This document shows positions 11,246-55,187 of a stretch of 64,000 nucleotides of DNA, piece after piece; position 1 is the first letter of the stretch, and each line of letters starts with the position of its first letter. The position numbers were made by a program, and so were the translations under genes. The stretch is from Prostheceraeus crozeri (taxonomy: Eukaryota; Platyhelminthes; Polycladida; Euryleptidae): positions 35,776-99,775 of the forward strand of contig CAJQUW010011240.1 in NCBI GenBank assembly GCA_907163375.1. The letters run 5' to 3'. The notes under the pieces are model-generated. The model ran no database searches, had not been told where the DNA came from, and was given only the letters and a program-made list of their open reading frames with translations.

Positions 11246-12235
11246 AGTAGTAAGTAAAACTCCACTTCTGGACCGCGCAAGATGGCCGCCGTCGCTGACG
11301 TCCCCCCCCCTCTGGACCGGCAGAGTGTCGTGGTCGGCCGCCGTGGTGCTTTGGGTCTGAGTCCCCCCCCTCTGGAACGACAGAGGTCTGTCGTGGTGTG
11401 CCGGCCAGGTGGGTCCACGTTCACAACATGTTCACTGACTCCCCCCCCCTCTGCATCAGCAGAGTGTCGTGGTGGACTTGGGCGACCGCCAGGATTAGTC
11501 TTGAGGCTATAGTGTGTGATGTTTTTCGTGCAATCTGCTGAATGTTGGGTTGTAAACTGGGCTGTTTCGAGTGGAAGGAGTGGTCGGATGTGAAAACGGA
11601 GGCCAGATTCGGATTCATCGTGAAATTCTGCATCGGTATGGTGAGTTTCAAGTCAATCGGAGAGAAAAATTTTCACTGACGTCCCCCCCCTCGGGAGAGC
11701 TGGCTTCGATCTTGGCTTCCAGTGGACGGATTTAGTCGTGCCATAGCTCGTTTGAAAGCTAAGAGTGAGACAAATTCACTGAAAGAATCGGCTTGTTCCT
11801 ATCTGTCTTCGTTTAGATGTGAGATGCCATTTAAGATTTTAGGTCGGAGCTCGCTCACCTGAAAAAATCCTAAGTGTCAGAGTGGCTTTGTATGGGCAAA
11901 ATTTTGAAAATTTTCCAAAGTGTGGCATTTCGACCTGGGACCGTCACCAAAACATTTTTCATCAAATTTCGTGACGTCCCCCCCCCGGCACCGATCTTCC
12001 AACTTTGGTTCTAGAGATCGTAGAAAGTCGTGCAATAGCTCGTTTGAAAGCTAAGAGTGAGACAAATTCACTGAAAGAATCGCCTTGTTCCTATCTGTCT
12101 TCGTTTAGATGTGAGACGCCATTTAAGATTTTGGGAGATTGACGAAAAACGATAGAGTTAGAATTTCCCAAGAAACAGCTCCAGCGGGCGAATGAAGGCT
12201 GGAATTGGTAAACGGAGGTCAGATTTGGAATCAGC
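11246..12235 (+). repeat. Left terminal inverted repeat of copy A with poly-C tracts
   Basis: Matches, in inverted orientation, the right arm ending at 35106 and the arms of copy B. It contains C8-C10 tracts near 11303, 11364, 11442, 11684 and 11978, most preceded by GACGT or GACT and followed by TCTGGA or TCTGCA. Between tracts are conserved modules of roughly 290 bp (cell-like words such as TCGTTTGAAAGCTAAGAGTG). The first 450 bp differ from the inner modules. It is non-coding; the short open frames here are artefacts of the repeat. Confidence 0.8.
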
Positions 12236-12248: not shown

Positions 12249-12391
12249 CCAATGAGGATCATCATCCAATGAGAATCAAGCATTTCTATATAAATAGCGA
12301 GCCTTCCACAGTGAGAATCATTCCATCGTTGAATCACACGAGTGACGGACGCACATTTCCTCTCTCTATTCTATTCTATTATCGAACTAAA
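12249..12391 (+). promoter_or_regulatory. CCAAT/TATA promoter of the left early-type transcription unit
   Basis: Two CCAAT boxes (12249-12253, 12266-12270) precede a strong TATA box TATATAAAT (12287-12295). The expected transcription start is near 12320. The 5'UTR contains a GAATCACACGAGTGACGGAC segment and a CT-rich stretch closely shared with the PolB promoter of copy B (46610-46660), so the two units are probably co-regulated. The leader ends at an ATG that is also the last codon before a splice donor. Confidence 0.75.
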
Positions 12392-14733: not shown

Positions 14734-14838
14734 CACCTATGCAAATGTGGTAAAGATAGGTTTTAGCAAAGACTAACACGGAAAATCGCGAAACGTAAAA
14801 GTCAAAAGTTTTCTTCAGCCATTCAAGCTCTCCGACGA

Positions 14839-15126
14839 ATGAAAGCAAATCAGCGATACAATGCTATACGACATGCTAATGATAAATTCATCCGTGAAAT
14901 TATTTCTCATGTGAGGAAGTTGAGGACGAAGAAATTAGCGCCAAAACAACGAAAGTTACTTAAGCGATATGCTACGAAATTGCGTTTCATCTCCAATCCT
15001 AAAGTCACCCTTCAAAGAAAGAGGAAAACTCTAACACAAAAGGGCGGTTTCCTTTCAGCAATACTTCCAATGATAGCTCCTGCCGTGGGCAACCTATTGG
15101 GTAATATCTTTGGCTCTAGACGTTAA
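14839..15126 (+). CDS. Small basic protein with hydrophobic C-terminus (virion-type); upstream start lost
   Basis: The 95 residues comprise a strongly basic helical body and a Gly-rich hydrophobic tail (GGFLSAILPMIAPAVGNLLG). Small basic or hydrophobic proteins of this shape accompany the capsid genes in Polintons and recall the membrane-active or core peptides of adenoviruses; the role is inferred. In copy B the protein starts 23 codons earlier (60412). In A the corresponding ATG is ATC (near 14782) and a 15-bp in-frame deletion follows, so A can start only at 14839 and lacks the basic N-terminus. Confidence 0.65.
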   Translation: MKANQRYNAIRHANDKFIREIISHVRKLRTKKLAPKQRKLLKRYATKLRFISNPKVTLQRKRKTLTQKGGFLSAILPMIAPAVGNLLGNIFGSRR

Positions 15127-15157
15127 TTATGCAAATGTTGAATCTCAAAGTAATAAA

Positions 15158-15775
15158 ATGGATTTCAGACTTCAATGTGATAAAGTTCTGACTGTATCAG
15201 GTCCATCTCATGCAGGTAAAACTGTTTTCACGCTGAATTTATTGGATAAAAGAAGGGAGTTGTTTAAGGAACCTATCAATCGAGTGATTTGGTGTTATGG
15301 TATTTATCAACCGTCGCTGTTTCAGGAATTGCAAAGTCGCAACTTTATTCGACATGAAGGAATTATTCCAGTGGATAAACATCAGTCTAATGATGTTGTT
15401 GTATTGGATGATTTATTAAAAGAAAGTAAGAATTCAAAAGATGTTACAGATATGTTCACTCGTGCAGCACATCATAAAAGGTGCTTTATCATCTATATCA
15501 CACAAAATTTGTTTCCTGATGGAAAAGAAGCTCGTACACGAAACCTGAATACACACTATTATGCTATTTTCAAGAATCCGCGAGATAAAAGTCAATTTGA
15601 AATTTTAGCGCGACAAGTTGCACCCAGAGGATCAAAAGCCTTAATTGAAATTTTTCAAGCAGCTACTGAAAAACCATACGGTTACTTATTCATTGACTTT
15701 ACGCAAGAGTGTCCGGAAGAATTTAGATTTCGAAGTGATATTTTGAAAACTCCCATGATTATCTACAAACTATGA
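15158..15775 (+). CDS. FtsK/HerA-type (A32-like) genome-packaging ATPase
   Basis: A 205-residue P-loop ATPase that should pump the genome into the capsid. Walker A is GPSHAGKT (about 15-22), Walker B is VVVLDDL (D84/D85), and a sensor-like IIYITQN lies at about 111-116. The size is normal for Polinton ATPases. I start at ATG 15158 because it lies just before the conserved DFRLQ lead-in; the frame extends upstream only with non-ATG codons. It overlaps the next gene by 4 nt at ATGAG. Copy A is intact; copy B has a 2-bp deletion just after Walker A. Confidence 0.9.
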   Translation: MDFRLQCDKVLTVSGPSHAGKTVFTLNLLDKRRELFKEPINRVIWCYGIYQPSLFQELQSRNFIRHEGIIPVDKHQSNDVVVLDDLLKESKNSKDVTDMFTRAAHHKRCFIIYITQNLFPDGKEARTRNLNTHYYAIFKNPRDKSQFEILARQVAPRGSKALIEIFQAATEKPYGYLFIDFTQECPEEFRFRSDILKTPMIIYKL

Positions 15776-16465: not shown

Positions 16466-16681
16466 ATGAAGCAGATGTGTTGCTTGCCATGTAATGAGCC
16501 GCCAGAGGTGAATGTCGTTGTCACTTGCACTTGCTGCGCCAGCTCTCACAATGAAACCCCTAAGCAATGTGAACACGATCGCAAAATCGCTAAAGCTAAA
16601 TGCTGCAGTTGTTGTAAATGTAGAAAGGCAAGAAAACAAAAGGATGAGAAGGAGAAAAAAGAGTCAGTCGTCATCGACTGA
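16466..16681 (+). CDS. Cys-rich 71-aa ORF overlapping the integrase start
   Basis: Contains about a dozen cysteines in CC, CxxC and CxC arrangements (MCCLPC, CTCC, CCSCCKC) followed by a Lys/Glu tail. This is a metal-binding (metallothionein or zinc-ribbon-like) composition. It begins 1 nt after the preceding stop and overlaps the integrase frame at 16512-16681. Either this ORF or the N-terminal part of the integrase frame may be unused: the recognisable integrase starts only near 16690. In copy B a single-base insertion breaks the start of this frame. The function is unknown. Confidence 0.4.
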   Translation: MKQMCCLPCNEPPEVNVVVTCTCCASSHNETPKQCEHDRKIAKAKCCSCCKCRKARKQKDEKEKKESVVID

Positions 16682-17732
16682 ACGTTTGAAGTCAATCTAT
16701 TATGATGTAAAGCATCCGGCAGGATTTGCATCTATCAAGAAATTATCAAAAGCGAGTGGTCTTCCACAATCACAAGTGAAACGATGGTTAAACGGTCAGG
16801 CTACCTATACACTCCACAAACAAGCGAAAAAGAAGTACCGCACCCGCCATTATATTGTTCATGACATCGATGAACAGTGGCAAGCAGATTTGTGTGATGT
16901 TGCCTCCATTTCAAAACATAACTCGGGCAATAATTTTATTTTAACCGTCATTGATATTTTCTCGCGTTATGCGTGGGCTCAACCTTTAAAAACTAAAGAA
17001 GGGAAAGGAGTAGCAAAAGCATTCCAAACAATTTTTCGAGAAGGCCGCATTCCAAAAAGAATTCAGAGTGATCAAGGAAAAGAGTTTGAAAATCAGCATG
17101 TGACAAGATTATTTGAGAGGCATGACATTGAGTTGTTTAGTGTAAAGAGTGCTTATAAAGCTGCACTCGTTGAACGTTTTAATCGCACATTAAAAAATCG
17201 CTTGTGGCGACATTTTACTGCCAACTTGACACAAAATTGGACAAAGGTTCTACAAGATACACTCCATGCCTACAATCACTCTATCCATCGTTCTATTGGA
17301 CTCAGACCAGTAGATGTAAATGCTGACAATGTAGATAAAGTGCGCGAATCATTCCAACGTAAACGCACTCATGTGAAAAGTGATGTGAAAATTGGTGATA
17401 AAGTTCGTATCTCAAAAGTGAAAAGTGTTTTTGCTAAAGGGTACCTTCCGAATTGGACAGAGGAGGTATTTACAGTATCAAGGATTAATCAAAAAGACTC
17501 TCCGACCACCTACAAGTTGAAAGATTACGATAATGAAGAAATTGAGGGTAGCTTTTACCGCGATGAGATTGAGGTAGTCACTGAAAGTGAAACATATTTG
17601 GTAGAGAAAATCATTCGATGTAAAAAACGCCAACGTGAAGAATGGTGTCTTGTTAAATGGACTGGTTATCCTTCAAGTATGAACTCTTGGATGCGTCGTG
17701 CTGACATCTTTCACCTAAGTGATCGACAGTGA
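16512..17732 (+). CDS. Retrovirus-type integrase with chromodomain
   Basis: Inserts the element into host DNA, making the 6-bp duplication seen at the ends of copy A. Of 406 residues, the first 55 are probably not conserved integrase. An HTH-like region precedes the catalytic core. Core acidic residues are D126 (QADLCDV), D187 (IQSDQGKEF) and E221 (ALVERFNRTLK). An SH3-like stretch follows (KIGDKVRISKVK), then a C-terminal chromodomain at about 361-399 (YLVEKII...EEWCLVKWTGYP...W). Chromodomain integrases can target histone marks. A later ATG (near 16644) is a plausible alternative start. It is intact in both copies with about 98% identity. Confidence 0.92.
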   Translation: MSLSLALAAPALTMKPLSNVNTIAKSLKLNAAVVVNVERQENKRMRRRKKSQSSSTERLKSIYYDVKHPAGFASIKKLSKASGLPQSQVKRWLNGQATYTLHKQAKKKYRTRHYIVHDIDEQWQADLCDVASISKHNSGNNFILTVIDIFSRYAWAQPLKTKEGKGVAKAFQTIFREGRIPKRIQSDQGKEFENQHVTRLFERHDIELFSVKSAYKAALVERFNRTLKNRLWRHFTANLTQNWTKVLQDTLHAYNHSIHRSIGLRPVDVNADNVDKVRESFQRKRTHVKSDVKIGDKVRISKVKSVFAKGYLPNWTEEVFTVSRINQKDSPTTYKLKDYDNEEIEGSFYRDEIEVVTESETYLVEKIIRCKKRQREEWCLVKWTGYPSSMNSWMRRADIFHLSDRQ

Positions 17733-18231: not shown

Positions 18232-19509
18232 ATGGAGTGTAAAACTTCTGGTTTTTGTTTGTTTGATCAACAAGCCATACAGACAGATATTCTTAGTTCA
18301 AGTATTGTAGATTATCATCCTCGAACAGCTGAGAATGCTGGCCCCATTGAATTTGTTATTCCTGGTGGTAGTGATGACTACATAGATTTGAGTTATGCGA
18401 TGGTTGATTTGAGGTTTAGAATTCAGCAAGCAGATGGAACTGCTATTGACGATACACATAAAGTTGGACTGAACAATTTACCATTGACTACATTACTTCG
18501 TGATGTTTCTCTAACGATTGGAGAGCAGCAGGTGGAAGGTGGTCAAAGCGATTATCCCTATAAATCATATTTCAATCATGTATCACAGTTTCATCCAGCA
18601 GCACAAAAAAGTCATATGGAAGCCATGGGATGGTATAGAGATGAAGCAGGAAAATTTGATGTTGAAACAAACAGTGGCTTTGTAAAGCGATCTGCTATGA
18701 TTAAAGATAGTAGAGTATGTCAGCTATATGGTCCGCTAAATTTAGACTTCTTTAGACAGTCAAAGTTTTTACTCTGTAATACCAGCATGCGACTCAAGCT
18801 GACATTGAATAAGCCTGAATTTGCGCTGAATGCATTTGCTAAAAATGACAATTTTAGAATTCATGTGGAAGATATTGCACTTTACATTCGTCGAGTAGTA
18901 CCGAATCCAAGTGTCATTAGAGGACATGCTGAAGGTCTTAACCGCCAAAATGCCATTTACCCCGTTCAGCATGCAAAGCTTCTCACCTTTACAATTCCTA
19001 AAGATCAAAAGAGTTTCATGAAAGATGGCCTCTTTCCATCGGAAGCACCGAAGCTCCTCATGGTGGCAATGGTTGAAAATGACGCATTTAATGGTAATAT
19101 AAAGAAGAATCCTTTCAATTTTAAACACAATCAGTTAAGTGAAATTGCTTTACGTGTAAATGGTGTGAGTCATCCTGGTCCACCCTACAAACCAGATTTT
19201 GCTGCGGATCAATTTATGCGCAGTTATGTTGATTTTATGGATGTCTTTGGCTTTTACAATACGGATGACACCAACGGACTGACTATGAAAGAGTTTAAGA
19301 GTGGATATACTATTTATGCATTTGATTTGACTGCTGACAGCGATATTAGTGCACCCTATCGTCAAGCGAACGTGCCTCATAATATTCGTTTGGATTTGAC
19401 GTTCAAAAGAACACTACCTGAGACGATCAATGTATTAATTTATGCAGTCTTCGATTCAAACATTGAAATTACAAAGTATCGTGACGTGATTCTTCAGTAT
19501 AATCGTTAA
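18232..19509 (+). CDS. Major capsid protein (Polinton PY / F54H12.2-like)
   Basis: 425 residues, the expected range for the metazoan F54H12.2-like family, which corresponds to the Polinton double-jelly-roll capsid protein. Recognisable features are the GPIEFVIPGGSDDYIDLSYA lead-in, the NLPLTTLLRDVSLTIGEQQV strand pair, the DYPYKSYFNHVSQFHP helix region, and a C-terminal half with the strands LTADSDISAPYRQAN and HNIRLDLTFKRTLPET. The stop overlaps the protease start (TAATG). Copy B differs at about five residues, indicating very recent common ancestry or constraint. Confidence 0.85.
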   Translation: MECKTSGFCLFDQQAIQTDILSSSIVDYHPRTAENAGPIEFVIPGGSDDYIDLSYAMVDLRFRIQQADGTAIDDTHKVGLNNLPLTTLLRDVSLTIGEQQVEGGQSDYPYKSYFNHVSQFHPAAQKSHMEAMGWYRDEAGKFDVETNSGFVKRSAMIKDSRVCQLYGPLNLDFFRQSKFLLCNTSMRLKLTLNKPEFALNAFAKNDNFRIHVEDIALYIRRVVPNPSVIRGHAEGLNRQNAIYPVQHAKLLTFTIPKDQKSFMKDGLFPSEAPKLLMVAMVENDAFNGNIKKNPFNFKHNQLSEIALRVNGVSHPGPPYKPDFAADQFMRSYVDFMDVFGFYNTDDTNGLTMKEFKSGYTIYAFDLTADSDISAPYRQANVPHNIRLDLTFKRTLPETINVLIYAVFDSNIEITKYRDVILQYNR

Positions 19510-19970
19510 TGAGTTGGTTGACTGCTGACGATATTAAGACTAAAGTGCAGCGTAATGCAGACGAAGCGACGTTGAAAGCTTTCGATAATGTCTATTCACT
19601 CGATACCTTACCACCTGCAGTAAATCACTATCCCATCTTTATTGTGCTAAACACTCATTCGCAGAATTTAGGCGGTGAGCATTGGAAAGCGATCTTTATT
19701 GGAGAAGACCGACGTGGTGAACTATTTGACTCTCTTGCTCAACCTCCAAATATACCAACACAGCAGTGGTTGAGAAAACATACGCGTCAATATCAGCGAA
19801 ATGAACGCATACTACAACATCCACTTTCATCAACGTGTGGTGCTTTTGTACTGTACTTCATCTTAAAACGTTTACATGTATCTCGATTTGCATCTATTAT
19901 TCAAAACTTTTCATGTAATCCATCCTCTAATGAAAAAATGATTTGTAAGTTCTATCATGATTTGAAATAA
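19509..19970 (+). CDS. Adenain-like (Ulp1-fold) cysteine protease
   Basis: 153 residues; the maturation protease that trims capsid precursors. The catalytic set is visible in order: H58 in GEHWK, acidic D74 in GELFDS, Q103 in LQHPLSS and nucleophile C110 in STCGAF. Spacing is that of adenovirus-type proteases, slightly short at the C-terminus. It overlaps the capsid stop by one base, and its own stop overlaps an AATAAA signal at 19966-19971. It is intact in both copies. Confidence 0.9.
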   Translation: MSWLTADDIKTKVQRNADEATLKAFDNVYSLDTLPPAVNHYPIFIVLNTHSQNLGGEHWKAIFIGEDRRGELFDSLAQPPNIPTQQWLRKHTRQYQRNERILQHPLSSTCGAFVLYFILKRLHVSRFASIIQNFSCNPSSNEKMICKFYHDLK

Positions 19971-20001
19971 AAACATCATGTTGGAAAAATTGTTTTTTAT
20001 T
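19966..20001. terminator. Overlapping convergent polyadenylation signals
   Basis: AATAAA on the plus strand (19966-19971) overlaps the protease stop codon. AATAAA on the minus strand (plus-strand TTTATT, 19996-20001) overlaps the stop codon of the TBP-like gene. The late forward block and the reverse transcription-factor block therefore converge within about 30 bp. The same arrangement exists in B near 55182-55220. Confidence 0.7.
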
Positions 20002-20542
20002 TTACAATCCGCTGGGTACGTACATACTCAATGAGATAGTCTAGGATCACATTTTCTTGTACATGAGATTTTAGTCCAGTAATGATCACTTTACTATTAT
20101 GAAAGATTGCCACATGCACAGGTAACCAACAACTAATGAGAGCTGCAGGAAAAAGTTCGGGTTCATAACACAAATTGTAACTGCTGGTACGAATCTTCAA
20201 AAATGATAGACTGTCACTCAATTGAGTAGAGATCACCATATTGTCCACAGTCAGATTCGACATCACACACCTCTCCCTCTTCCATATCCGACGTAGTAGT
20301 CTTTGTAGCTCTAAGCGCATTGACTGCGCCGATGAATGAGAAAGGGCGCCGAGAATCTGTACAGTCCCATTTGGGAAGAGTTGAAGATTCCGTGAATTGT
20401 TCATCTTCACCACTAACATTTGAGGACGGCCCGGGTAATACTTGCTGTTTGGAAGCTGTTGGTGTAATGTTGTGAGATCGATTTTGGTGTAGAGTCTGAA
20501 GCGACGGAGAATGTTGACGATGGTGTAGCGATGGCGCTTCAT
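19997..20542 (-). CDS. TATA-binding protein (TBP)-like transcription factor
   Basis: A 181-residue protein, the length of the TBP core, made of two direct repeats (about 8-86 and 97-176). Repeat 1 has TIVNILRRFRLYTKIDLTTL and LQLFPNGTVQILGA. Repeat 2 has NMVISTQLSD, the TBP hallmark YEPELFP, and VAIFHNSKVIITGLK. Of the four DNA-intercalating phenylalanines (yeast F99, F116, F190, F207), three are present (F56, F131, F147); the F99 position is Pro40. Start: the Met at 20542 directly precedes repeat 1. It should bind TATA-like promoters, perhaps those of the element. Its first 329 nt overlap the end of the adjacent PC4-like frame. It is intact in both copies. Confidence 0.85.
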   Translation of the reverse strand: MKRHRYTIVNILRRFRLYTKIDLTTLHQQLPNSKYYPGRPQMLVVKMNNSRNLQLFPNGTVQILGALSHSSAQSMRLELQRLLRRIWKRERCVMSNLTVDNMVISTQLSDSLSFLKIRTSSYNLCYEPELFPAALISCWLPVHVAIFHNSKVIITGLKSHVQENVILDYLIEYVRTQRIVK

Positions 20543-20864
20543 GATGAAAGAATGAGTAAATTGAGCGATGTACCTTCCTTTTATACTTTTCCCAACTACC
20601 TTGATGAAATGTGAAGTTAGTATGAAGTTGGGAATGATAGAGTTGAATTCGCCGATTGTTGACGCGCAGCCAGATGCGATTTCCAATACGTGAATGTCTT
20701 TTCATATAGAAGTATTTCAAGTCCTTCATGATATGATGTAGAGATTGAAAATGACGATAAGATAAAGCAAACTCTCTTCTCACATTTCCAGTTGAATCTT
20801 TGAAATAGACGTTTCGATCATGATCCGTTTCAATACGTTGTAGGGAATCTAATTTCCAACTCAT
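20214..20864 (-). CDS. PC4-like DNA-binding protein paralogue 2, with long tail
   Basis: 216 residues. The first 110 align throughout with the neighbouring 118-aa protein (WKLDSLQRIETDHDRNVYFK against WILDSLQYIRVDRDGNVHFK). That part has two strand-strand-strand-helix units whose pattern resembles the PC4/p15 coactivator fold (short basic strands, then a FALSYRHFQSL helix start). The fold assignment is by pattern only. The remaining 105 residues are Ser/His/Gln-rich and acidic and are read in the frame overlapping the TBP-like gene, so the tail may be incidental. It lies 22 bp downstream of its paralogue on the same strand. Confidence 0.6.
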   Translation of the reverse strand: MSWKLDSLQRIETDHDRNVYFKDSTGNVRREFALSYRHFQSLHHIMKDLKYFYMKRHSRIGNRIWLRVNNRRIQLYHSQLHTNFTFHQGSWEKYKRKVHRSIYSFFHHEAPSLHHRQHSPSLQTLHQNRSHNITPTASKQQVLPGPSSNVSGEDEQFTESSTLPKWDCTDSRRPFSFIGAVNALRATKTTTSDMEEGEVCDVESDCGQYGDLYSIE

Positions 20865-20886: not shown

Positions 20887-21243
20887 TTAAGATTTGCATA
20901 GTAGGGCGATGAACTCACGACGAATAAATGTCATGATGGAGCGATGTATATATCTTCTATACTTCTCCCAATTGTATTTGCGAAATGAGAAACAGTTTGC
21001 GGAATGAGAATGGTAGATTTGAATTTCATTTCTGTAATGTTGAAGCCAAACTTGATCACCCAAGGAGATGAATCTTAATGTTTCAAAATATTCCAAATCC
21101 CTCATGATATCATTGAGGTTGACAAATTGTCGCCATGTTAATGTAATTCCTCTTGATGTATGACCATGAGAATTTTTGAAATGTACGTTTCCATCACGAT
21201 CAACTCTGATATATTGTAGAGAGTCCAAAATCCAAGTCTTCAT
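20887..21243 (-). CDS. PC4-like DNA-binding protein paralogue 1
   Basis: 118 residues from the ATG at 21243. Two similar halves: VDRDGNVHFK...RGITLTWRQFVNL and LGDQVWLQHYRNEIQIYHS...NWEKYRRYI. Each looks like the strands plus helix of a PC4-type single-strand DNA-binding and coactivator fold, where human PC4 has a comparable GISLxxxQW motif. Together with the second paralogue and the TBP-like gene it forms a reverse-strand transcription-factor block. It diverges from the minor-capsid gene at 21279, with only 35 bp between the two ATGs. Confidence 0.6.
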   Translation of the reverse strand: MKTWILDSLQYIRVDRDGNVHFKNSHGHTSRGITLTWRQFVNLNDIMRDLEYFETLRFISLGDQVWLQHYRNEIQIYHSHSANCFSFRKYNWEKYRRYIHRSIMTFIRREFIALLCKS

Positions 21244-21278
21244 GATGTTATGCAAAGTTGCAGATTAGCAATATAAAA

Positions 21279-22676
21279 ATGTCGTTTTATCATATTTTGC
21301 TTAGCAATGCGGCTACAAAGAGATTTACTAGTAATCGAGCCGCACTCTTTTCTACTCCCATTGATCATGCACAACAGCTAAATGGAAATTGGGAAGTGGG
21401 TGTCACTCAACTTGTTTATAGCAACTGTGTCTATACTTTTGATCATGAGGTGATGACTATTAATATGAGGCGTACAGCTGCTTACCAATGTGAAAAGGGC
21501 TGCCGAGTATACATTCCACAGTGGCCAAAGAAAGATCTCTTATCATGTAAAAAGTTTATATATGATTTCTTGAATAAAGCGAGTAAACATATTGTCCAAT
21601 TTACTCCGCACAATGATGATTATACTTATGTACATCATGTAGTTGAGAAAGATTGGATTGTTGGTTTAAGTCCAAGTTTAAGAAATGATTTAGGTTACCT
21701 CGCTAGCGCCTTAACAAGCTATGATAATTTTAGCGTTAATTACCACATAAGTGGTCATAAACAGTTAATATATCGAGAGGATGCTTATTATGTAGATCTT
21801 ATTCCAAGAAATGAGAAGACGTTGGTGAAGAAGATTGTGATTAAGCCAAGAAAGACAAACACGACTCCTGAAACATTATTGAAGAAATTTAATTATCTCC
21901 TTCGAGTTGATGGCAAACAAGTGGCAACATTGACTTATATTAAATCATCTAATCATATTGCAATAAGCAAATTAAATGATGATGATCTAGTATTAGTTTG
22001 TTCAAAAGATTTTCATCAGTTCTTACGACATCGTTCTGCAGCTGTTCATGGAAAATCTGATGTGCAACATTTACCATGTGAAAGGTCAAATCAATTTGAT
22101 ACAGAATGGACCGTATCTTTATACAGAAAGTGTGTAGAGCCTTTAGGTGGTATCTTACATGAAACAAGAGTGTTGATGCCTCGCATTATTACTTCGGTTA
22201 AATTGGTTGTAGATTATTTAAATGAAGTGATTAATGACCAACATATTTCATTTTCTGAAAAAGAAGGTACTTTGTCTCTCACTATAAGTGGAAAAGGTAT
22301 TGAACTAATTATGGATAAAACTCTAATGGACATTTTGGGTTTTGATCAAAATATCTTTAAAAGTGGTACTGTAACCAAAGCTAGCGCAGACATGTCGCTA
22401 TCGCGTCGTATTAACTATTTTCAGATATATTCCAATATTGGTGAAGATGTACGTGTGGGAGATGTTGAAGCTCCATTGCTAGCAATGATACCATACCAGC
22501 CAAAAAGCTGCAGTATTTTATCTGAGCATACTTTCAAGAAAGTGCATTATACAAAGCTGAAATCAAAGTACATCCCACAAATTGATATTGCCATTTATGA
22601 CGATGCTGGTGCGTTGATTCCTTTTCATAAAGATGCTGTGACAAGTATCACACTCCATTTCCGAATGAAGAGTTAA
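21279..22676 (+). CDS. Minor-capsid/penton-like protein 1
   Basis: 465 residues from the ATG at 21279; the frame upstream has only TTG. It opens with the widespread Polinton motif for capsid-associated proteins (PIDHAQQLNGNWEVGVTQLV). It ends with a conserved Polinton-style C-terminus (HYTKLKSKYIPQIDIAIYDD...FHKDAVTSITLHFR). A similar N-terminal motif opens the next gene, so the two are paralogues. Penton or spike-type minor capsid protein is the best reading; which of the two is the penton cannot be decided here. TATAAAA sits immediately before the ATG. Confidence 0.65.
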   Translation: MSFYHILLSNAATKRFTSNRAALFSTPIDHAQQLNGNWEVGVTQLVYSNCVYTFDHEVMTINMRRTAAYQCEKGCRVYIPQWPKKDLLSCKKFIYDFLNKASKHIVQFTPHNDDYTYVHHVVEKDWIVGLSPSLRNDLGYLASALTSYDNFSVNYHISGHKQLIYREDAYYVDLIPRNEKTLVKKIVIKPRKTNTTPETLLKKFNYLLRVDGKQVATLTYIKSSNHIAISKLNDDDLVLVCSKDFHQFLRHRSAAVHGKSDVQHLPCERSNQFDTEWTVSLYRKCVEPLGGILHETRVLMPRIITSVKLVVDYLNEVINDQHISFSEKEGTLSLTISGKGIELIMDKTLMDILGFDQNIFKSGTVTKASADMSLSRRINYFQIYSNIGEDVRVGDVEAPLLAMIPYQPKSCSILSEHTFKKVHYTKLKSKYIPQIDIAIYDDAGALIPFHKDAVTSITLHFRMKS

Positions 22677-24236: not shown

Positions 24237-24415
24237 AGTCATTGTGATATGTTTATTGAAATAAAAATATGTATATGAAAAAGTCTTTTCACAGATATAG
24301 GGGGAATGGGCTGACTGTAGGCATATATTCACAAGGAAGAAACGATCTCATGCGATACATAAAACAACCATGTATATCTACAAAAAGCAACATCAAAATA
24401 CTGAGTTAAAGTTGA

Positions 24416-27400
24416 TTATGTCAATACATCTCCTGAATGTGGTAGCGTGAGTTTTATTCTTTTGGGTGGAGGTATGTTTGTGTCAGGATGTCCATGTGGA
24501 AGAGATGTGTTATGTCCTATCCAACACCTCTTATCCTCCCATGCTGAAAGTGCTCGTTTCTTGAACGTGTACGTTTTCACAGTATGAACTTGAGATTTTA
24601 AGATTGTCATATTGACAAACGTTATATTTTTATTTTTATAGGCCTTCTTATAGGAGCGATGTTTCATTTTGTGAACAATGGATTTTGATATACCTTTAGC
24701 ACGCTTAATACTATCTGCACATTCTTTTAATTTCATGAAATACATTTTAGGACGGAGGAGAATCATTTCATCTATTTCCTTTCCTGCTGTTTCATCCTTA
24801 AAACAACCAAGTTTGGCTTTATTCTGTATGGAATAGAGTGGATGAGTGGGATTGTAGTTAGATGTGTCGAAATATTTTTCTAATGACTTGCCTACTTCAT
24901 TAAAATTTAAATCTTTTTGAGTGGTAATTCCTAAAAAGAAACTATCTGTATCACCACCCAGCAAGCGAACCTCTTTTACGAGAAGGCATGGTTTTAATAT
25001 TTTGTAGAAGAGTTGATACATTTCAAGCTTGGAATAATCTAAAACGGCTTGCCCAATATAGATGGGTTTGCACAACTCAACTTCTGATTTTATCATTTTA
25101 ACACCTACAAGATCCTCATCGATGATGTCTCTATCAATGAAAAGAGGTGATGAGGTCAATTTGTGATATTTTTGTTCATCAACGACTAGTTTGTAGTTCA
25201 TACGTTTTCTAACATCCTCCATGGTCTTTCCGAAAAGACTGTTATTCTTATATTTATAAAAATCCTTTTCAAAATTATTTTGGGCGAGTGCACGTTTTTG
25301 ACTGTTACTATCTATGTAGGGTTTGAGGAATGCTTTCTGTCTAAATTTGATAATGCGGTGAACTGACTTTAGAAGCATGCCCATTTCTAAATAGAATTTT
25401 AATATGCAGAAGTGTACGAGATAATTTTTCTTATCATATTGGGTGAGTAAAAGTTTGCGGCATGGTTTGTACCTTGGCTGTCCACACTCTGTTAAGTTAT
25501 TATGAAATTGTGACATGAATGGTGAAAACATATCTTCAGTCACTTCACCAGATTCAGGTGCGAGTGGGAAATCAGCAGTTTTATTTTTAATGCTATTTGG
25601 ATAAATCAAATCCACTTCAAAATAATATCCCCAATCACCTTCATCTGGAATCTTCAGTATGTTTGAAGGATTGGAGTAATACTCAAGCTCATCTTGATTT
25701 AACCAACTAAACTCGGAATGAGGTAGTGGTTTAGACAGTGAACTGCCATATAAATTATTTTGGTCATAGTACTTTAGGTGGATATGATCATCACCTACTG
25801 TTTCAGATTTTATATGATGTTTATTTACAAATGTGAGACCACCGCGTATTCCGCGCTCAAATATATTATACATCTCCGGGTCTTGTAAGAGGTGAATGGT
25901 CTCACCAGTCATTTTAAAGGCTGATTTAAAGGACATGGCTGGTAGACTGACAAAGTGGACAGGATCTAATTTGTCTTCTTCTAATGCCACTAGTCGAAAT
26001 TCCTGAAAGACATCAGCCAGCAAAATGACATCTAATTCTAAGTAAGCGATCATATAATCGCCAAACGTTTTACATTCAAATTTTAACCATGCCTCTTGAG
26101 CATGTTCATAATCTTCTATTGGACAATCTTCACCCGTCAAATCGTTTTGGAATTTGTCAATGGAAGGAAGGGTTGTTTCATTTAGTTTAGACATTGAGCT
26201 AAAATACGCATAAGGAAAGACTCCTTTGCGAGTGATTATTTCATCCGTTAAGTTTGGATAGTGTTTCTTCAAAGTTTGACTATGGGGAAGAAACTTGAGA
26301 TTACGAACGAGAGAAGCTAGTGACGCTGACATGAATTGGAATGAATCTAAAAATTTTATTTCGAAGAAGACTGTCTTATTTTCTTTAGTTTTATCTACTG
26401 GTACTTTTGCTGTCATTGCCATGAATTTTTCTCTCGTTTGTGCTATTACATTAAACTGCCACGATTTCATCTGGCTCAACCCTCCTTTTATGAGCATATG
26501 ACTGTCATAGCCCTTAAAGTTATGAAAAATGACGGGTAGTACACGACGTCTCAACCTAAGTGAAAAGTTACATTTGGAGCAGAGTGCGTTTCTAAATTTA
26601 CCAGTGATGTGATCATGATCACGCACTTTCTTAATTTTATCGTCATCAAACGTTTTATGACATTTAGGGCAGGATGTGCAACTTTCAAATTTTTGTTTGT
26701 CTTCATCTGACATATGTAGTGACTTACGCTGCAATTGGGAATCATATGATTGTTGAAATTTAGCAGCTTTATCGAGAAATTCTAGAAATTTTGAAATGCA
26801 ATCTTCACCTTGCCAAGTATGCATTTTGTTTTGTCTATTCCTAAAGTGGTCATGCCATACTTCATAGCAGGATATGGCTGCTGGCTTGTGGATGATATCA
26901 TCAATGTAGCATTCTATGTCTGCGTAAATGACACGCAGGGGACTTAATTCGTCACCATTATCCCTATGTGAAAATATTTTATCTTTGGGCATGCGTTCCA
27001 TTTGTAATTTACCTCGCTTGCACCATTCATAGTGAGTTTCAAATTTATCTTTACTCCAAAAGGAGCGGATGCAGCGGTCGCATACAAAATGTTCACCTCT
27101 TTTAGAGTGCCCCAAGTGAGTGTACAAGCGAGAGATTTTGGGAATACCACAGTAGTGCCATTCCTCGCTGTCATTTTGTTTTACTAATAAGAGGTTGACT
27201 ACACGTTCATAACAAGTTGAACGTGAATTATAGCGGGCACCCTTCAACCCCTTCTCCCACACGTGAACGACAATTTTAATCTTATTATGTTTTTCGAACG
27301 TTTCTACATCTTTGATTTTCATGTTGTTACTATCACAACCTTCAAAGTCTAGTTCATCCTCCCACTGTCTATAGCTATAGGTGCGATCTCGGTGCGCGTT

Positions 27401-28390
27401 GATATCATTATAGTGAAGGATGGATAGGACTGCATATTTGAAACACTGTGATTTACAATCGACATTGATGACAGCTTTCTTATTATACAACGTTTTTGGT
27501 AGTTTAAATGTACCTCGAGCTGCATGACTTTCTAATAGTGAAATTTTGAATATGGCTGAGTCCACACCATCAAAAATGAGAGCGCTGTCGCGTTGATTGA
27601 ATTTATCCACATTTGATTTTAAACATTGAATGTGAAAATTTAGCCAAGACTCGCAGTCTACAACTTCGGTTGCGGAAGAGGAAGGAACATGAAACTGTAT
27701 TCTCTCCGTCACTTGACCCGTTTGAAAATCTATCTTAATATATTTTAGTTTAAGGTAGATGAGCGCCTTCATTCTAAAATTGTCTAAATTGTTGAAGAGC
27801 GCTTCGATAATGTTTGAATTTTGAAGGAGCCACTCAGGAAAATCTACTATTTGAGTATTGGACTCCATGCAGTAGTCGCGTACTAAATTATTATGTGAAA
27901 CATTAATGAGGGAGCTGGTAGAGGTACCGTTGGTGTAGTGGTCATTTGCATGCGTGTGTTGAAGTCTGTGTGAAGATCGCTGAAAGTGACTATCAAAAGA
28001 AAGAGGGCACAAATCGCAAGGAAAGGAGATGTCATCGACAGAATCAACTTCACCTCCGGAGATTGACGCCGCTTTGCGTTGACACACACGTTGTTTGATG
28101 TGTCGAAGGAGACTGTGCTTCCTTGTAAACATATGTCCGCAGTCGGCACATTCCCACTCGTTGCCTTGTCGCGAGAGTCCTGAGCTGGAACTCACATCAC
28201 CTGAAAGAGAAATCATTCTTTCATCTCTGTTCAATTCTCAGTGTATTGTTACAACCTACCTTGACTCAACAACTCTAAACTTTCCTCAAGAAGGGAGGGT
28301 GTTGGTGATGAAGTTGATGCCTGAAATTGAGGAAGATGCTATTAGCCACACGTTTGAGGGAGATGAGTGAAGAAATTTTCAACTTACCAT
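24416..28390 (-). CDS. Protein-primed family B DNA polymerase with N-terminal zinc fingers (three exons)
   Basis: Replicates the element. Exons: 28388-28390 (ATG only), 28260-28320, and 24416-28200, about 1282 codons. All junctions are GT-AG with matching phase, and the same three-exon model fits copy B. Domains: two C2H2 fingers (WECADCGHMFTRKHSL, CDLCPLSF); a Polinton-specific N-terminal domain with INVDCKSQCFKYAVLSILHY; another finger; exonuclease motifs YADIECY and FHNFKGYDSH; polymerase motifs YYDQNNLYG, KNNSLFGKTMED and GGDTDSFFL. The frame is intact. The poly-A signal is at 24252-24257 (reverse). Compared with B it is only about 80-85% identical, unlike neighbouring genes. Confidence 0.9.
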
Positions 28391-28667
28391 TTCAACGAAA
28401 TTATGTTTAAGCTTGATACTTCAACAAGATAGAGACTTCACTCAAATAATACGTCTCAAATTTGGAATTCACTTGTACGCCTCAAATAATAACAGAATTC
28501 GCTAGACAACAGTTCACTTATGCGTCTCAAAGACAGAGTGAAATGACACGAATGTCACTTTGCATATATACTTTCATATTCATCATTCATTGGCTGTTCA
28601 TTCTGATTGGTTGCTTGTTGATACTTAAGAATTAGAAAACATTTCAAAGTTATTATTCACAGTCAAC
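28391..28667. promoter_or_regulatory. Divergent promoter between PolB and the 131-aa gene, copy A
   Basis: Two ATGs point away from each other across 277 bp. For PolB a TATA-like AGTATATATGC lies near 28563-28573 (reverse). The PolB leader has three variants of a CACTTGTACGCCTCAAA-type motif (about 28443, 28479 and 28525). A TATA-weak region near 28620 may serve the forward gene. In copy B the PolB leader is replaced by sequence closely matching the promoter of the 234-aa gene, so promoter modules have been exchanged. Confidence 0.6.
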
Positions 28668-29063: not shown

Positions 29064-29110
29064 TAAATTTTTATTTCGTATTATCTTTGCTTTCATACTG
29101 ACTTACTTGA

Positions 29111-30897: not shown

Positions 30898-30937
30898 CGT
30901 GACTTCAAATTGAATGAGAAGTGCTACAATCTTCTGG

Positions 30938-31008
30938 CTTATATAGGGTTTTCAACAATGAATTGCTCAACAGCGAATCAGAATGCTTCAGGGATAGCAA
31001 TCGACTGC
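30938..31008 (-). promoter_or_regulatory. TATA box and upstream 20-mer of the 84-aa gene
   Basis: On the minus strand the conserved GCAGTCGATTGCTATCCCTG (31008-30989) lies about 45 bp upstream of TATATAAG (30945-30938), about 40 bp before the ATG. The same 20-mer recurs in every unit of the 29111-30138 array, suggesting a binding site for one regulator. Confidence 0.65.
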
Positions 31009-31430: not shown

Positions 31431-31489
31431 GATTGAAATGAAATGAAATGAGAGGCAGTGGTTTATATACCCCTCTAACGCGACGCAAC

Positions 31490-33689: not shown

Positions 33690-35106
33690 AAGTGTGAGAG
33701 CTCCAGTGTGGTGAAAATTTTGAAAAATTTAAAACTTCCGAATTTCGACCTGGGACCTTTACCAAAACATTTTTCACCAAATTTCGCTGACCTCCCCCCC
33801 TCGTTCAGAGGAATTTGATGAAAAATGTTTTGGTGACGGTCCCAGGTCGAAATGCCACACTTTGGAAAATTTTCAAAATTTTACCCATACAAAGCCACTC
33901 TGACACTTAGGATTTTTTCAGGTGAGCTCCGACCTAAAATCTTGTAACAGCTCTAACTTTTGAACGGCTGGTCCGATTGACTTGCGGCAAAAAATGTCGT
34001 GCAGCAGTTTTTTCTCCTCTTTCAAACGAGTAGCTGTAAGACAAAATCCGTCCACTAGAACCAAAGTTAGAAGATCGCTGTCGGAGGGGGTCAGCGAAAT
34101 TTGATGAAAAATGTTTTGGTGACGGTCCCAGGTCGAAATGCCACACTTTGGAAAATTTTCAAAATTTTGCCCATACAAAGCCACTCTGACACTTAGGATT
34201 TTTTCAGGTGAGCTCCGACCTAAAATCTTGTAACAGCTCTAACTTTTGAACGGCTGGTCCGATTGACTTGCGGCAAAAAATGTCGTGCAGCAGTTTTTTC
34301 TCCTCTTTCAAACGAGTAGCTGTAAGACAAAATCCGTCCACTAGAACCAAAGTTAGAAGATCGCTGTCGGAGGGGGTCAGCGAAATTTGATGAAAAATGT
34401 TTTGGTGACGGTCCCAGGTCGAAATGCCACACTTTGGAAAATTTTCAAAATTTTGCCCATACAAAGCCACTCTGACACTTAGGATTTTTTCAGGTGAGCG
34501 AGCTCCGACCTAAAATCTTAAATGGCGTCTCACATCTAAACGAAGACAGATAGGAACAAGCCGATTTTTTCAGTGAATTTGTCTCACTCTTAGCTTTCAA
34601 ACGAGCTATGGCACGACTAAATCCGTCCACTGGAAGCCAAGATCGAAGCCAGCTCTCCCGAGGGGGGGGGACGTCAGCGAAAATTTTTCTCTCCGATTGA
34701 CTTGAAACTCACCATACCGATGCAGAATTTCACGATGAATCCGAATCTGGCCTCCGTTTTCACATCCGACCACTCCTTTCACTCGAAACAGCCCAGTTTA
34801 CAACCCAACATTCAGCAGATTGCACGAAAAACATCACACACTATAGCCTCAAGACTAATCCTGGCGGTCGCCCAAGTCCACCACGACACTCTGCCGATGC
34901 AGAGGGGGGGGAGTCAGCGAACATGTTGTGAACGTGGACCCACCTGGCCGGCACACCACGACAGACCTCTGTCGTTCCAGAGGGGGGGGGACTCAGACCC
35001 AAAGCACCACGGCGGCCGACCACGACACTCTGCCGGTCCAGAGGGGGGGGACGTCAGCGACGGCGGCCATCTTGCGCGGTCCAGAAGTGGAGTTTTACTT
35101 ACTACT
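33690..35106 (-). repeat. Right terminal inverted repeat of copy A with 286-bp tandem modules
   Basis: Inverse of the left arm; ends ACTTACTACT at 35106. It carries two essentially identical consecutive 286-bp modules (about 33898-34183 and 34184-34469) plus partial ones, and the poly-C tracts appear here as G runs (near 34664, 34906, 34981, 35042). Module number differs between all four arms, showing repeat expansion and contraction. Open frames in the modules are repeat artefacts. Confidence 0.8.
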
Positions 35107-40860: not shown

Positions 40861-42600
40861 AGTAGTAAGGAAGTGACAAACACCAGATAGCGCAAGATGG
40901 CCGCCATCGCTGACTCCCCCCCCCTCTGGAACGGCAGAGTGTCGTGGTCGGCCGCCGTGGTGCTTCGGGTCTGAGTTCCCCCCCCCTGGAACGACAGAGG
41001 ATGTAGTCTGTCGTGGTGTGCCGGCCAGGCGGGTCCACGTTCACAAACTGTTCGCTGACGTCCCCCCCCTCTGGAACGATAGAGTGTCGGTCGTGGTGGA
41101 CTTGGGCGACCGCCAGGATTAGTCTTGAGGCTATAGTGTGTGATGTTTTTGGTGCAATCTGCTGAATGTTGGGTTGTAAAATGGGTTGTTTCGAGTGGAA
41201 GGAGTGGTCGGATGAGAAAACGGAGGTCGGATTCGTATTCAGCGTGAAATTCTGCATCGGTAGGGTGAGTTTCAAGGCAATCGGTGAGAAAAAATTTTCA
41301 ACATTTTTCGAAAAACGACAGAGTTAGAATTTGGGACGTTTTGGTGTGTAGCGTCAAAACGAAGCATCGGATGAGAAAACGGAGGTCAGATTCGGATTCA
41401 GCGTGAAATTCTGCATCGCTATGGTGAGTTTCAAGTCAATCGGAGAGAAAAAATTTTCGGCTGACGTCCTCCCCCTCTGGACAGCTTGCTTCGATTTTGG
41501 CTTCCAGTGGACGGATTTTGTCGTGCGATAGCTCGTTTGAAAGCTAAGAGTGAGACAAATTCAGTGAAAGAATCGGATTGTTCCTATCTGTCTTCGTTCA
41601 AAAGTTAGAGCGGTTACAAGATTTTAGGTCGGAGCTCGCTTACCTGAAAAAATCCTAAGTGTCAGAGTGACTTTGTATGGGTAAAATTTTGAAAATTTTC
41701 CAAAGTGTGGAATTTCGACCTGGGACCGTCACCAAAACATTTTTCATCAAATTTCACTGACCTCCCCCCCCCCCTCTGGACAGCTTGCTTCGATTTTGGC
41801 TTCCAGTGGACGGATTTTGTCGTGCGATAGCTCGTTTGAAAGCTAAGAGTGAGACAAATTCAGTGAAAGAATCGGCTTGTTCCTATCTGTCTTCGTTCAA
41901 AAGTTAGAGCGGTTACAAGATTTTAGGTCGGAGCTCGCTTACCTGAAAAAATCTTAAGTGTCAGAGTGACTTTGTATGGGTAAAATTTTGAAAATTTTCC
42001 AAAGTGTGGAATTTCGACCTGGGACCGTCACCAAAACATTTTTCATCAAATTTTGAAATTTCACTGACGTCCCCCCCCCCCTCTGGACAGCTTGCTTCGA
42101 TTTTGGCTTCCAGTGGACGGATTTTGTCGTGCAATAGCTCGTTTGAAAGCTAAGAGTGAGACAAATTCAGTGAAAGAATCGGCTTGTTCCTATCTGTCTT
42201 CGTTTAGATGTGAGACGCCATTTAAGATTTTGGAACATTGGCGAAAAACGACAGAGTTAGAATTTGGGACGTTTTGGGCTGTAGCTTCAAAACGAAGCAT
42301 CGGATGGGAAAACGGAGGCCAGATTTGGAATCAGCGTCAAATTCTTTATCTGTATGGTGAGTTTCATGTCAATCGGAGAGTTTCAAGTCAATCGGAGAGA
42401 AAAATTTTCAACATTTTTCGAAAAAACGACAGAGTTAGAATTTTTGCGATGGCTGCCTACTGTAGAGCCAAAACGAAGCATCGGATGGGAAAACGGAGGC
42501 CAGATTCGGATTCAGCGTCAAATTCTACATGGAAATGGTGTATTTCCAGCTCAATCGGAGCACTAGAACCGGCGATAGACGGGTTTTTTAGTGTTTGGAT
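40861..42600 (+). repeat. Left terminal inverted repeat of copy B
   Basis: The outer 450 bp match the ends of copy A. Modules of about 295 bp follow, each starting at a C8-C12 tract plus TCTGGACAGCTTGC (near 41470, 41765 and 42070), then a divergent inner part with repeated GAAAAACGACAGAGTTAGAA words. One more module is present than in the left arm of A. Confidence 0.8.
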
Positions 42601-46443: not shown

Positions 46444-46668
46444 GTTGTCTTTGAAATGCTGACTTTGAATAATGATAACTTTAACATTTTTCTAATTCTT
46501 AAGTATACACAAGCAGCCAATCAGAATGAACATCCAATGAATGAAGAGAATGAAAGTATATAAGCAAAGTGACATTCATGTCATTTCATTTAATCTGTGA
46601 ATCATACAAGTGACGAACGCACGATCTCTCTCTTTGACTATTATTCTGTCTGATCATATTTCATTAAA
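46444..46668. promoter_or_regulatory. Divergent promoter between PolB and the 145-aa gene, copy B
   Basis: AGTATATAAGC (near 46555-46565) is the PolB TATA box. The leader GAATCATACAAGTGACGAAC...CTCTCTCTTTGACTATT matches the leader of the 234-aa gene (12330-12380) rather than the PolB leader of copy A. Confidence 0.65.
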
Positions 46669-53940: not shown

Positions 53941-54297
53941 ATGAAGACTTGGATTTTGGACTCTCTACAATATATCAGAGTTGATCGTGATGGAAACGTA
54001 CATTTCAAAAATTCTCATGGTCATACATCAAGAGGAATTACATTAACATGGCGACAATTTGTCAACCTCAATGATATCATGAGGGATTTGGAATATTTTG
54101 AAACATTAAGATTCATCTCCTTGGGTGATCAAGTTTGGCTTCAACATTACAGAAATGAAATTCAAATCTACCATTCTCATTCCGCAAACTGTTTCTCATT
54201 TCGCAAATACAATTGGGAGAAGTATAGAAGATATATACATCGCTCCATCATGACATTTATTCGTCGTGAGTTCATCGCCCTACTATGCAAATCTTAA
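53941..54297 (+). CDS. PC4-like paralogue 1, copy B
   Basis: Amino-acid sequence identical to the copy A protein (20887-21243). Two PC4-like half units; divergent from the minor-capsid gene across 35 bp. Confidence 0.6.
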   Translation: MKTWILDSLQYIRVDRDGNVHFKNSHGHTSRGITLTWRQFVNLNDIMRDLEYFETLRFISLGDQVWLQHYRNEIQIYHSHSANCFSFRKYNWEKYRRYIHRSIMTFIRREFIALLCKS

Positions 54298-54319: not shown

Positions 54320-54970
54320 ATGAGTTGGAAATTAGATTCCCTACAACGTATTGAAACGGATCATGATCGAAACGTCTATTTCAAAGATTCAACTGGAAAT
54401 GTGAGAAGAGAGTTTGCTTTATCTTATCGTCATTTTCAATCTCTACATCATATCATGAAGGACTTGAAATACTTCTATATGAAAAGACATTCACGTATTG
54501 GAAATCGCATCTGGCTGCGCGTCAACAATCGGCGAATTCAACTCTATCATTCCCAACTTCATACTAACTTCACATTTCATCAAGGTAGTTGGGAAAAGTA
54601 TAAAAGGAAGGTACATCGCTCAATTTACTCATTCTTTCATCATGAAGCGCCATCGCTACACCATCGTCAACATTCTCCGTCGCTTCAGACTCTACACCAA
54701 AATCGATCTCACAACATTACACCAACAGCTTCCAAACAGCAAGTATTACCCGGGCCGTCCTCAAATGTTAGTGGTGAAGATGAAAAATTCACGGAATCTT
54801 CAACTCTTCCCAAATGGGACTGTACAGATTCTCGGCGCCCTTTCTCATTCATCGGCGCAGTCAATGCGCTTAGAGCTACAAAGACTACTACGTCGGATAT
54901 GGAAGAGGGAGAGGTGTGTGATGTCGAATCTGACTGTGGACAATATGGTGATCTCTACTCAATTGAGTGA
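54320..54970 (+). CDS. PC4-like paralogue 2, copy B
   Basis: 216 residues, one substitution from copy A. The conserved N-terminal half matches paralogue 1. The tail overlaps the TBP-like frame from 54642. Confidence 0.6.
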   Translation: MSWKLDSLQRIETDHDRNVYFKDSTGNVRREFALSYRHFQSLHHIMKDLKYFYMKRHSRIGNRIWLRVNNRRIQLYHSQLHTNFTFHQGSWEKYKRKVHRSIYSFFHHEAPSLHHRQHSPSLQTLHQNRSHNITPTASKQQVLPGPSSNVSGEDEKFTESSTLPKWDCTDSRRPFSFIGAVNALRATKTTTSDMEEGEVCDVESDCGQYGDLYSIE

Positions 54971-55187
54971 CAGTCTATCATTTTTGAAGATTCGTACCAG
55001 CAGTTACAGTTTGTGTTATGAACCCGAACTTTTTCCTGCAGCTCTCATTAGTTGTTGGTTACCTGTGCATGTGGCAATCTTTCATAATAGTAAAGTGATC
55101 ATTACTGGACTAAAATCTCATGTACAAGCAAATATGATCCTAGACTATCTCATTGAGTATGTACGTACCCAGCGGATTGTAAAATAA
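54642..55187 (+). CDS. TATA-binding protein (TBP)-like transcription factor, copy B
   Basis: 181 residues with the two TBP repeats and YEPELFP intact. Four substitutions relative to A (in KMKNSR, SSYSLCY and VQANMILD). None touches the retained Phe positions. It keeps the overlap with the PC4-like frame and the convergent poly-A signals with the protease. Confidence 0.85.
   Translation: MKRHRYTIVNILRRFRLYTKIDLTTLHQQLPNSKYYPGRPQMLVVKMKNSRNLQLFPNGTVQILGALSHSSAQSMRLELQRLLRRIWKRERCVMSNLTVDNMVISTQLSDSLSFLKIRTSSYSLCYEPELFPAALISCWLPVHVAIFHNSKVIITGLKSHVQANMILDYLIEYVRTQRIVK

Follow-up and report, generated by a model that had tools for sequence, protein, structure and literature searches.

Does a small integrating element in an animal genome carry its own TATA-binding protein (TBP), and what could such a protein do there? 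The question is raised by two related elements, copies A and B, in a stretch of 64,000 nucleotides from Prostheceraeus crozeri (hereafter the window), each of which has an intact TBP-like gene (Table 1). The host genome comprises 2.05 Gb in 14165 contigs and carries canonical TBP exons (L017, L019) as well as what we take to be a TLF-like exon (L018/L025).

We call the element Polinton-type on the basis of its integrase, its terminal inverted repeats (TIRs), its size and its gene set. The outer ends of the TIRs of copy A, each ~800 nt long, lie ~23.9 kb apart, in agreement with the long TIRs and the roughly 15-25 kb of Polintons/Mavericks, and the integrase combines an rve domain with a chromodomain, another mark of this group. 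For the adenain-like protease, protein-primed PolB, double jelly-roll capsid protein and packaging ATPase of Polintons, the element has putative candidates (Table 1). The protease gene stands tail to tail with the TBP gene. That the 425-aa product is a capsid protein is our assumption from gene position: it has 264 homologues, its profile matched none of the PDB chains, and in PHROGs it weakly resembled a late promoter regulator family (E = 0.0047). The motifs GDTDS and YDQNNLYG in the 1266-aa ORF presumably mark a protein-primed PolB; the ORF gave no PolB match in Pfam or PDB, and one piece of it resembled vRNAP_dom below the cut-off of that model (E = 0.32). We note that the PolB-like ORF and its surroundings (24316-28401 in copy A, 46658-50740 in copy B) are 79-87% identical between the copies, with most other aligned blocks at 95-99%. 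For the ORF, dS is 1.07 and dN 0.115, and the block looks like an exchange between element lineages.

Table 1. Features of the window, with positions counted from its first letter.
Feature	Position	Strand	Basis or remark
Left TIR, copy A	11246..12050		808 aligned nt, 95.9% identity
Right TIR, copy A	34305..35106		pairs with the left TIR
TIR, copy B	41308..42335		pairs with 62969-64000; 1037 aligned nt, 96.5%; may extend past the window end
Putative packaging ATPase	15158..15775	+	phrog_6891 ATPase E = 0.0011, Pox_A32 E = 0.012; both weak
Integrase with chromodomain	16512..17732	+	rve E = 1.3e-10, Chromo E = 1.6e-6; both above cut-off
Putative major capsid protein, 425 aa	18232..19509	+	gene position
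Adenain/Ulp1-like protease	19509..19970	+	Peptidase_C48 E = 0.0013 (below its cut-off), Peptidase_C5 E = 0.044
TBP-family gene, copy A	19997..20542	-	181 aa, ATG to stop; Pfam TBP, PDB TBPs
TBP-family gene, copy B	54642..55187	+	181 aa, intact; counterpart of the copy A gene
TBP-gene core promoter, copy A	20550..20585	-	TATAAAAGG and TCATTC
TBP-gene core promoter, copy B	54599..54634	+	same TATA-initiator as in copy A
Overlapping gene, 216 aa, copy A	20214..20864	-	overprints TBP codons 1 to ~108 with its C-terminal half
Overlapping gene, copy B	54320..54970	+	counterpart of the copy A gene
118-aa paralogue of the N-terminal half of the overlapping gene, copy A	20887..21243	-	alignment; no Pfam family
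118-aa paralogue, copy B	53941..54297	+	0 nt differences to copy A
Large ORF, 1266 aa, PolB-like	24416..28216	-	Endonuclease_7 E = 4.1e-6; C2H2 zinc-finger stretches
TATA-initiator site near the left end of copy A	12287..12324	+	matched twice, with overlap; not followed directly by a clear gene
TATA-initiator promoter of the 84-aa ORF (30643-30897)	30910..30945	-	motif pair
TATA-initiator promoter of the 88-aa ORF (31164-31430)	31434..31469	-	motif pair
ATGCAAA upstream of the putative ATPase gene	15129..15135	+	candidate second promoter class
Further ATGCAAA	17736		gene start 17774
Further ATGCAAA	20899	-	gene start 20864
Further ATGCAAA	21250		gene start 21279
Further ATGCAAA	22676		gene start 22707

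A first-pass annotation, made from the letters of the window, had proposed a Polinton-encoded TBP of core length with two TBP repeats, the YEPELFP signature, three of the four intercalating phenylalanines and an intact counterpart in copy B. Each of these points is borne out, and the proposal as a whole agrees with sequence, gene order, copy number and phylogeny. The copy A ORF, which lies on the minus strand, matches the Pfam TBP model PF00352 in two repeat stretches (E = 8.4e-20, 70.8 bits against a cut-off of 22.9). Searched against PDB by sequence, the protein finds a solved TBP as its best match (E = 7.9e-12), and nearly all of the 35 distinct PDB sequences at E <= 1 are labelled TBPs or TBP fusions. 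The NCBIfam TBP models also respond (best E-value 4.1e-18), every one of them under its strict cut-off; PHROGs returned no match to the element TBP. YEPELFP occupies residues 126-132, and Pro40 stands at the yeast F99 position. Judged by its sequence, the 181-aa ORF is a genuine member of the TBP family.

The gene is not confined to the window. A genome search with the Pfam model scored 150 places, the best of 10982 candidates, four of which are host exons; by a hand count, 138 of the other 146, which we read as element copies, have no stop in the matched repeat. With the element protein P0001, all 150 best-scoring places (of 11879 candidates) run through residues 1-181 with no stop, at an identity of 98-100%, and the 99 best-scoring places for the capsid-type protein (of 19178 candidates) are all uninterrupted and 99-100% identical. 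Because only best-scoring rows were counted, these searches establish many intact copies and not the fraction that is intact. Capsid-type and TBP matches share 11 contigs beyond that of the window (by eye), 494 nt apart in ten and far apart in C751.

Three element lineages carry the gene, and their TBPs are 41-52% identical between lineages. Regions of 9.9 kb were taken around 12 TBP places, and genes were called by tblastn with the window proteins (E <= 1e-4). Three regions are of the window type (lineage 1: L044-L046), four belong to a divergent element with the order capsid-protease-TBP (lineage 2: L037, L038, L040, L041), and in five the TBP gene adjoins a PolB-like gene (lineage 3: L039, L042, L043, L047, L048). 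In other words, among regions picked by TBP, the gene accompanies capsid-type and protease genes in seven and a PolB-like gene in five. None of the five lineage 3 regions has a capsid, integrase, ATPase or protease gene detectable at this threshold, and none was found in another 10 kb on each side of three of them. One lineage 3 element (L042/L069/L070) has 968-nt inverted repeats ~16.3 kb apart, and this PolB-plus-TBP element is possibly a satellite of the full elements. Three divergent capsid-type loci were chosen independently of TBP (ranks 2 to 4, rank 1 being the already sampled L038), and each of the three shows TBP matches where they were expected, split into two pieces.

Selection on the gene is evident and not strong. 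The pooled dN/dS of intact copies within lineages is 0.42 (n=14), 0.50 (n=3) and 0.46 (n=10), after removal of seven duplicate loci and with L047 counted as intact, which is doubtful given its split match. Of 38 sampled places, ten are not intact, despite coming from good-scoring rows. The TBP is constrained to the degree expected when neutral drift after insertion is included. Equal non-synonymous and synonymous rates had been named beforehand as the sign of frame decay. The within-lineage values are not one; the two window copies fit less well, since their genes differ at 4 of 546 nt, all four changes being non-synonymous and none synonymous.

The DNA-contact face was examined in a family alignment of 139 rows, i.e. 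P0001 and 138 homologues among the matches listed (P0001-P0062, P0183-P0259). Yeast residue numbers and residue roles (intercalating Phe, minor groove, TFIIB-facing) were transferred to the element proteins on our own assumption. In the C-terminal half, N159, V161, P191 and F207 are invariant in all 139 rows, and F190 (138/139) and T215 (137/139) are nearly so. The TFIIB-facing residues are retained as well: E186 in 135 rows, E188 in all and L189 in 126. The deviations in this half are A, T or S at L205, where L is canonical, and mostly I at V213. The N-terminal half keeps N69 (115/116) and F116 (139/139) and departs from canonical TBP at other positions: F99 is Pro in 133/136 rows, V122 is Gln in 139/139, L114 is Gln in 135/139, T124 is Leu in 122/139 and otherwise Met or Phe (Leu, Met and Phe together 139/139), and V71 is Met in 103/127 (Leu in P0001 itself). 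The family has the canonical minor-groove and TFIIB-facing residues of the C-terminal half, lacks the canonical minor-groove residues V71, L114, V122 and T124, and has three of the four intercalating phenylalanines.

The two halves are conserved about equally in the family (0.59 and 0.60). Since the new N-half residues are themselves conserved, the change is better described as remodelling than as decay. The predicted DNA-binding face is asymmetric, with a canonical C half and a rebuilt, conserved N half, so that the single Pro of the first-pass annotation appears as part of a rebuilding of the N-terminal DNA-contact half. In our reading, the 5' kink of the TATA box would be kept and the 3' half would be read differently. 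The replacement of F99 by Pro, with the remaining substitutions of the N half, could also abolish stable TATA binding.

The TBP gene has a predicted core promoter of its own, which the first-pass annotation did not contain. In copy A the first T of TATAAAAGG lies at 20585, 43 nt before the ATG, and A+1 of the initiator TCATTC lies at 20553, 11 nt upstream of the ATG. A TATA box paired with TCAT precedes the gene in 33 of the 38 sampled places, covering all three lineages, with a spacing of 32 nt in 32 of the 33; one of the other places has the TATA box only and four have neither. The promoter sits within the coding part of the overlapping gene, so its TATA box might be conserved partly through the YKR codons of that gene, and both constraints probably act. 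A conserved N-terminal protein extension in metagenomic homologues (SIK...HFF) was considered and rejected. An extension of sufficient length is present in 23 of 138, and 17 of these 23 have I/T followed by K/N 14 codons before the start, which is what a TATA box at -43 would encode. We read the extension as in-frame TATA and initiator DNA: in the window the 54 codons from the preceding stop to the TBP start contain no ATG, and the DNA from the genome itself shows the TATA box.

How widely the motif is used is a separate matter. The expectation that most small genes of the element have textbook TATA boxes did not hold for TATAAA alone, which shows no enrichment (19 occurrences in copy A and 23 in copy B, against 23 in the 18.2 kb outside); what stands is an excess of TATA boxes with an initiator at 28-33 nt, including that of the TBP gene. 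In copy A five such pairs fall on four sites, where shuffled sequences yield 0.27 on average and never more than 3 in 200 shuffles. The pair is absent before the putative capsid, ATPase and integrase genes of copy A. In lineage 3 each of the five regions has three matches (null means 0.03-0.20), including one that precedes the TBP gene and one in front of a further conserved ORF. The window-type region L044 has one (null mean 0.27); with the strict initiator, no pair occurs in any of the four lineage 2 regions.

Of the 19 gene starts of copy A, 5 are preceded at a distance of 15-45 nt by a second motif, ATGCAAA; any 7-mer reaches five in only 1 of 2000 random start sets. This count takes 22707, the second ATG of the ORF at 22686, as a start; with 22686 it becomes 4/19, which is reached in 13 of 2000 sets, and the start at 30898 is one base off. 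The motif is retained in window-type copies, and its exact form is absent within 80 nt upstream of the lineage 2 genes examined (L037, L038, L040, L041). ATGCAAA was therefore rejected as a target of the element TBP, since it is absent from lineage 2 although the family shares its DNA-contact residues. That it marks a second promoter class is only a lead. Two side observations concern its surroundings: at 21243-21279 the start codons of divergent genes are 35 bp apart and have one ATGCAAA in common, and 14739-15119 appears to be the gene of a small basic/hydrophobic protein that ends in KGGFLSAILPMIAPAVGNLLGNIFGSRR, with no ATG near its ATGCAAA motif.

What would the protein do? To our knowledge, virus-encoded TBPs otherwise come from large viruses with their own RNA polymerase. 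The TBP of a 24-kb integrating element would need host machinery. Among the 19 ORFs of copy A, Pfam recognised no TFIIB or RNA polymerase family above cut-off, and therefore the protein is most likely an alternative TBP that works with host RNA polymerase II (Pol II). The joint explanation that we favour, and think rather probable, is that Polinton-type elements encode a distinct, old TBP subfamily, transcribed by the host and acting as an alternative TBP at element promoters. Host Pol II would transcribe the gene from its TATA-initiator promoter, and the product would bind TATA-type core promoters of the element, its presumed targets, through the canonical C half and the rebuilt N half. With the TFIIB-facing residues retained in its C half, it would then stand in for host TBP/TFIID and bring in host TFIIB and Pol II. 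The outcome would be either a boost of the element's TATA genes and of its own gene or an element-specific promoter preference. The first-pass annotation had suggested promoters that could do without host TBP or compete with it, a function that we likewise treat as conjecture. If so, the data suggest that the element may itself steer the transcription machinery of the host.

Against this explanation weigh, besides the N-half changes, the 4:0 ratio of non-synonymous to synonymous changes between copies A and B, the ten non-intact places among 38, and the presence of TATA-initiator pairs at few genes. A bolder version we hold to be possible rather than probable. Here the rebuilt N half would confer a new, strictly oriented core-promoter specificity, and a small integrating virus without RNA polymerase would redirect host Pol II to its own class of promoters, using a factor that is expressed early from a TATA-initiator promoter and whose gene overlaps a second, possibly regulatory one: a specificity switch by half a TBP.

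The loss of canonical residues from the N-terminal DNA-contact face across the aligned family would also suit a negative regulator, in which a half-altered TBP sits on TATA boxes without forming a productive complex and represses host genes, element genes or its own. The promoter of the gene is itself a TATA box and would permit such autoregulation. We regard this as unlikely, since a pure blocker would need none of E186, E188 and L189, and these are kept in the great majority of rows.

Less probable again is a role in DNA bending, for replication, packaging or genome compaction, with no part in transcription. The protein is very basic (pI 9.6-10.2 in the three lineages), and the TBP gene persists beside the PolB-like gene in lineage 3, where capsid, integrase, ATPase and protease genes were not detected. 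The same lineage argues that packaging is no general role, as no capsid gene was found there, and the conserved transcription-factor contact residues point to transcription.

The first-pass annotation had asked for a tree with host and viral TBPs. In both trees that we calculated, with 21 and 20 selected rows of element TBPs, these proteins form a separate clade on one side of a long branch with 100/100 support. Host TBP, the TLF-like exon, archaeal TBPs and other viral TBPs all fall outside. The first tree used 21 metagenomic or window rows and the second 14 plus 6 own-genome rows; of 14 viral loci, 11 entered the first tree (L007 and L012, which are near-copies, and L013, from which no ORF was extracted, were left out) and six the second. 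In the first tree the IMG/VR rows L003-L005 group with eukaryotes at a weak 82/62 and the remaining viral rows, except the long-branched L011, lie among archaea at 87/96; in the second the deeper relations between viral, eukaryotic and archaeal TBPs have no resolution. The element proteins do not group with TLF/TRF2: the TLF-like exon, itself a long-branched row, lies outside the clade of 20 element TBPs at 100/100.

Relatives of the element TBP are diverse in public metagenomes: P0001 has 61 homologues at E <= 1e-3, and the TBP alignment 1062 at E <= 1e-5, of which the best 120 are listed. Four TBP homologues have exactly the contig size of a capsid-type homologue (P0012/P0154, P0186/P0166, P0191/P0162, P0225/P0097). 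The comparison covered contigs >= 3000, drawn from the 61 rows and the best 120 of 1062 for TBP and the best 120 of 264 for capsid, without the row of the window itself; 4 of 49 TBP values recur among 89 capsid values, against a shifted-control mean of 0.375 (maximum 3 in 600). Equal size ties the two kinds of homologue together indirectly. No relative was found in IMG/VR (scanned with P0001, A1, the capsid-type protein, A2 and A3), in GTDB contigs (A2 and A1) or in the phage collection.

A recent capture of a host TBP or TLF gene would find its source in the same genome, where TBP exons and a TLF-like exon are present. We consider it very improbable, as it is contradicted by the long branch with 100/100 support, which sets the element clade apart from both, and by the diversity of the metagenomic relatives. 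The gene is better understood as an old element gene and not as a recent capture, because it forms one deep clade apart from host, archaeal and viral TBPs.

A further result that goes beyond the first-pass annotation is that a predicted upstream gene overprints the N-terminal 60% of TBP in all three lineages. Its frame is open for 101-112 codons into TBP in 25 of 28 copies (the exceptions are L023, L045 and L047), whereas synonymous-codon shuffles give a mean open run of 8-19 codons and reach the observed run 0 or 1 times in 1000. The C-terminal ends of its product can be recognised as similar across all three lineages (PFSF, ...SIE). Synonymous divergence inside and outside the overlap gives a mixed picture (0.031 vs 0.051 in lineage 1, 0.061 for both in lineage 3). 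That the TBP frame is a chance ORF or a mere passenger of this gene, from which no functional TBP is made, is barely credible even with 60% of it overprinted in another frame, given the Pfam match, the 40% at the C terminus that lies outside the overlap, the equal conservation of the halves, the invariant TBP residues and a dN/dS below one outside the overlap (0.39 and 0.40).

Among known systems, the element TBP resembles the cellular TBPs of eukaryotes and archaea (PF00352), with which it shares the two repeats, the core length, the canonical C-terminal DNA face and the YEPELFP stirrup, and from which it differs in its rebuilt N-terminal DNA face (P99, Q114, Q122, L124) and its separate, long-branched clade. 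TLF/TRF2 (TBPL1) is likewise a second TBP-type protein in the animal cell, but the TLF-like exon of the host reads YEPELHS where TBP reads YEPELFP, and it lies outside the element clade. Haloarchaeal plasmids also bear extra TBPs, and the match from Halorientalis litorea lacks Phe at F99 as well (by eye); the four records are only 28.6-29.9% identical to the element protein, and the two that were compared fall among the archaeal rows.

Giant-virus TBPs resemble the element TBP in being encoded by a virus. The IMG/VR rows L003-L005, which are giant viruses in our reading, go weakly with eukaryotic TBPs, and the element has no recognised RNA polymerase or TFIIB. One report places a megavirus TBP in one expression cluster with the virus RNA polymerase subunits, TFIIB and TFIIS (PMC11464507). 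In mirusviruses TBP recurs within a group of DNA viruses, being present in 59% of genomes according to PMC10132985, which gives 431.5 kb for one genome; these are hundreds of kb against ~24 kb for the element, and the likeness is drawn from this published description. Elements of putative mirusvirus origin in a green alga are reported to carry TBP genes sporadically (PMC10675990). Poxvirus VITF-3, described in PMC12917281 as an atypical TBP/TFIIB-like factor, likewise has TBP-like parts and guides the choice of promoters, with the difference that its partner is the poxviral RNA polymerase. A literature search that covered few subscription journals and preprints found no report of a TBP in an animal Polinton, which does not prove novelty.

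A TBP found in nature whose DNA face is canonical in one half and rebuilt in the other would be a means of testing how direction and sequence are read and which contacts are required by TFIIB and TFIIA. It would also bear on gene control in host cells by Polintons, which have at least 150 near-identical TBP copies in this genome.

Two minor features of the window are recorded here. Tandem units of ~200 bp (GTGGATGATTTAACCATGTATAC...) were spotted by eye at 29100-30120 of copy A. Outside the elements, 4301-6745 on the minus strand is an ORF of the non-LTR retrotransposon type (RVT_1 E = 1e-29, endonuclease E = 4.9e-12).
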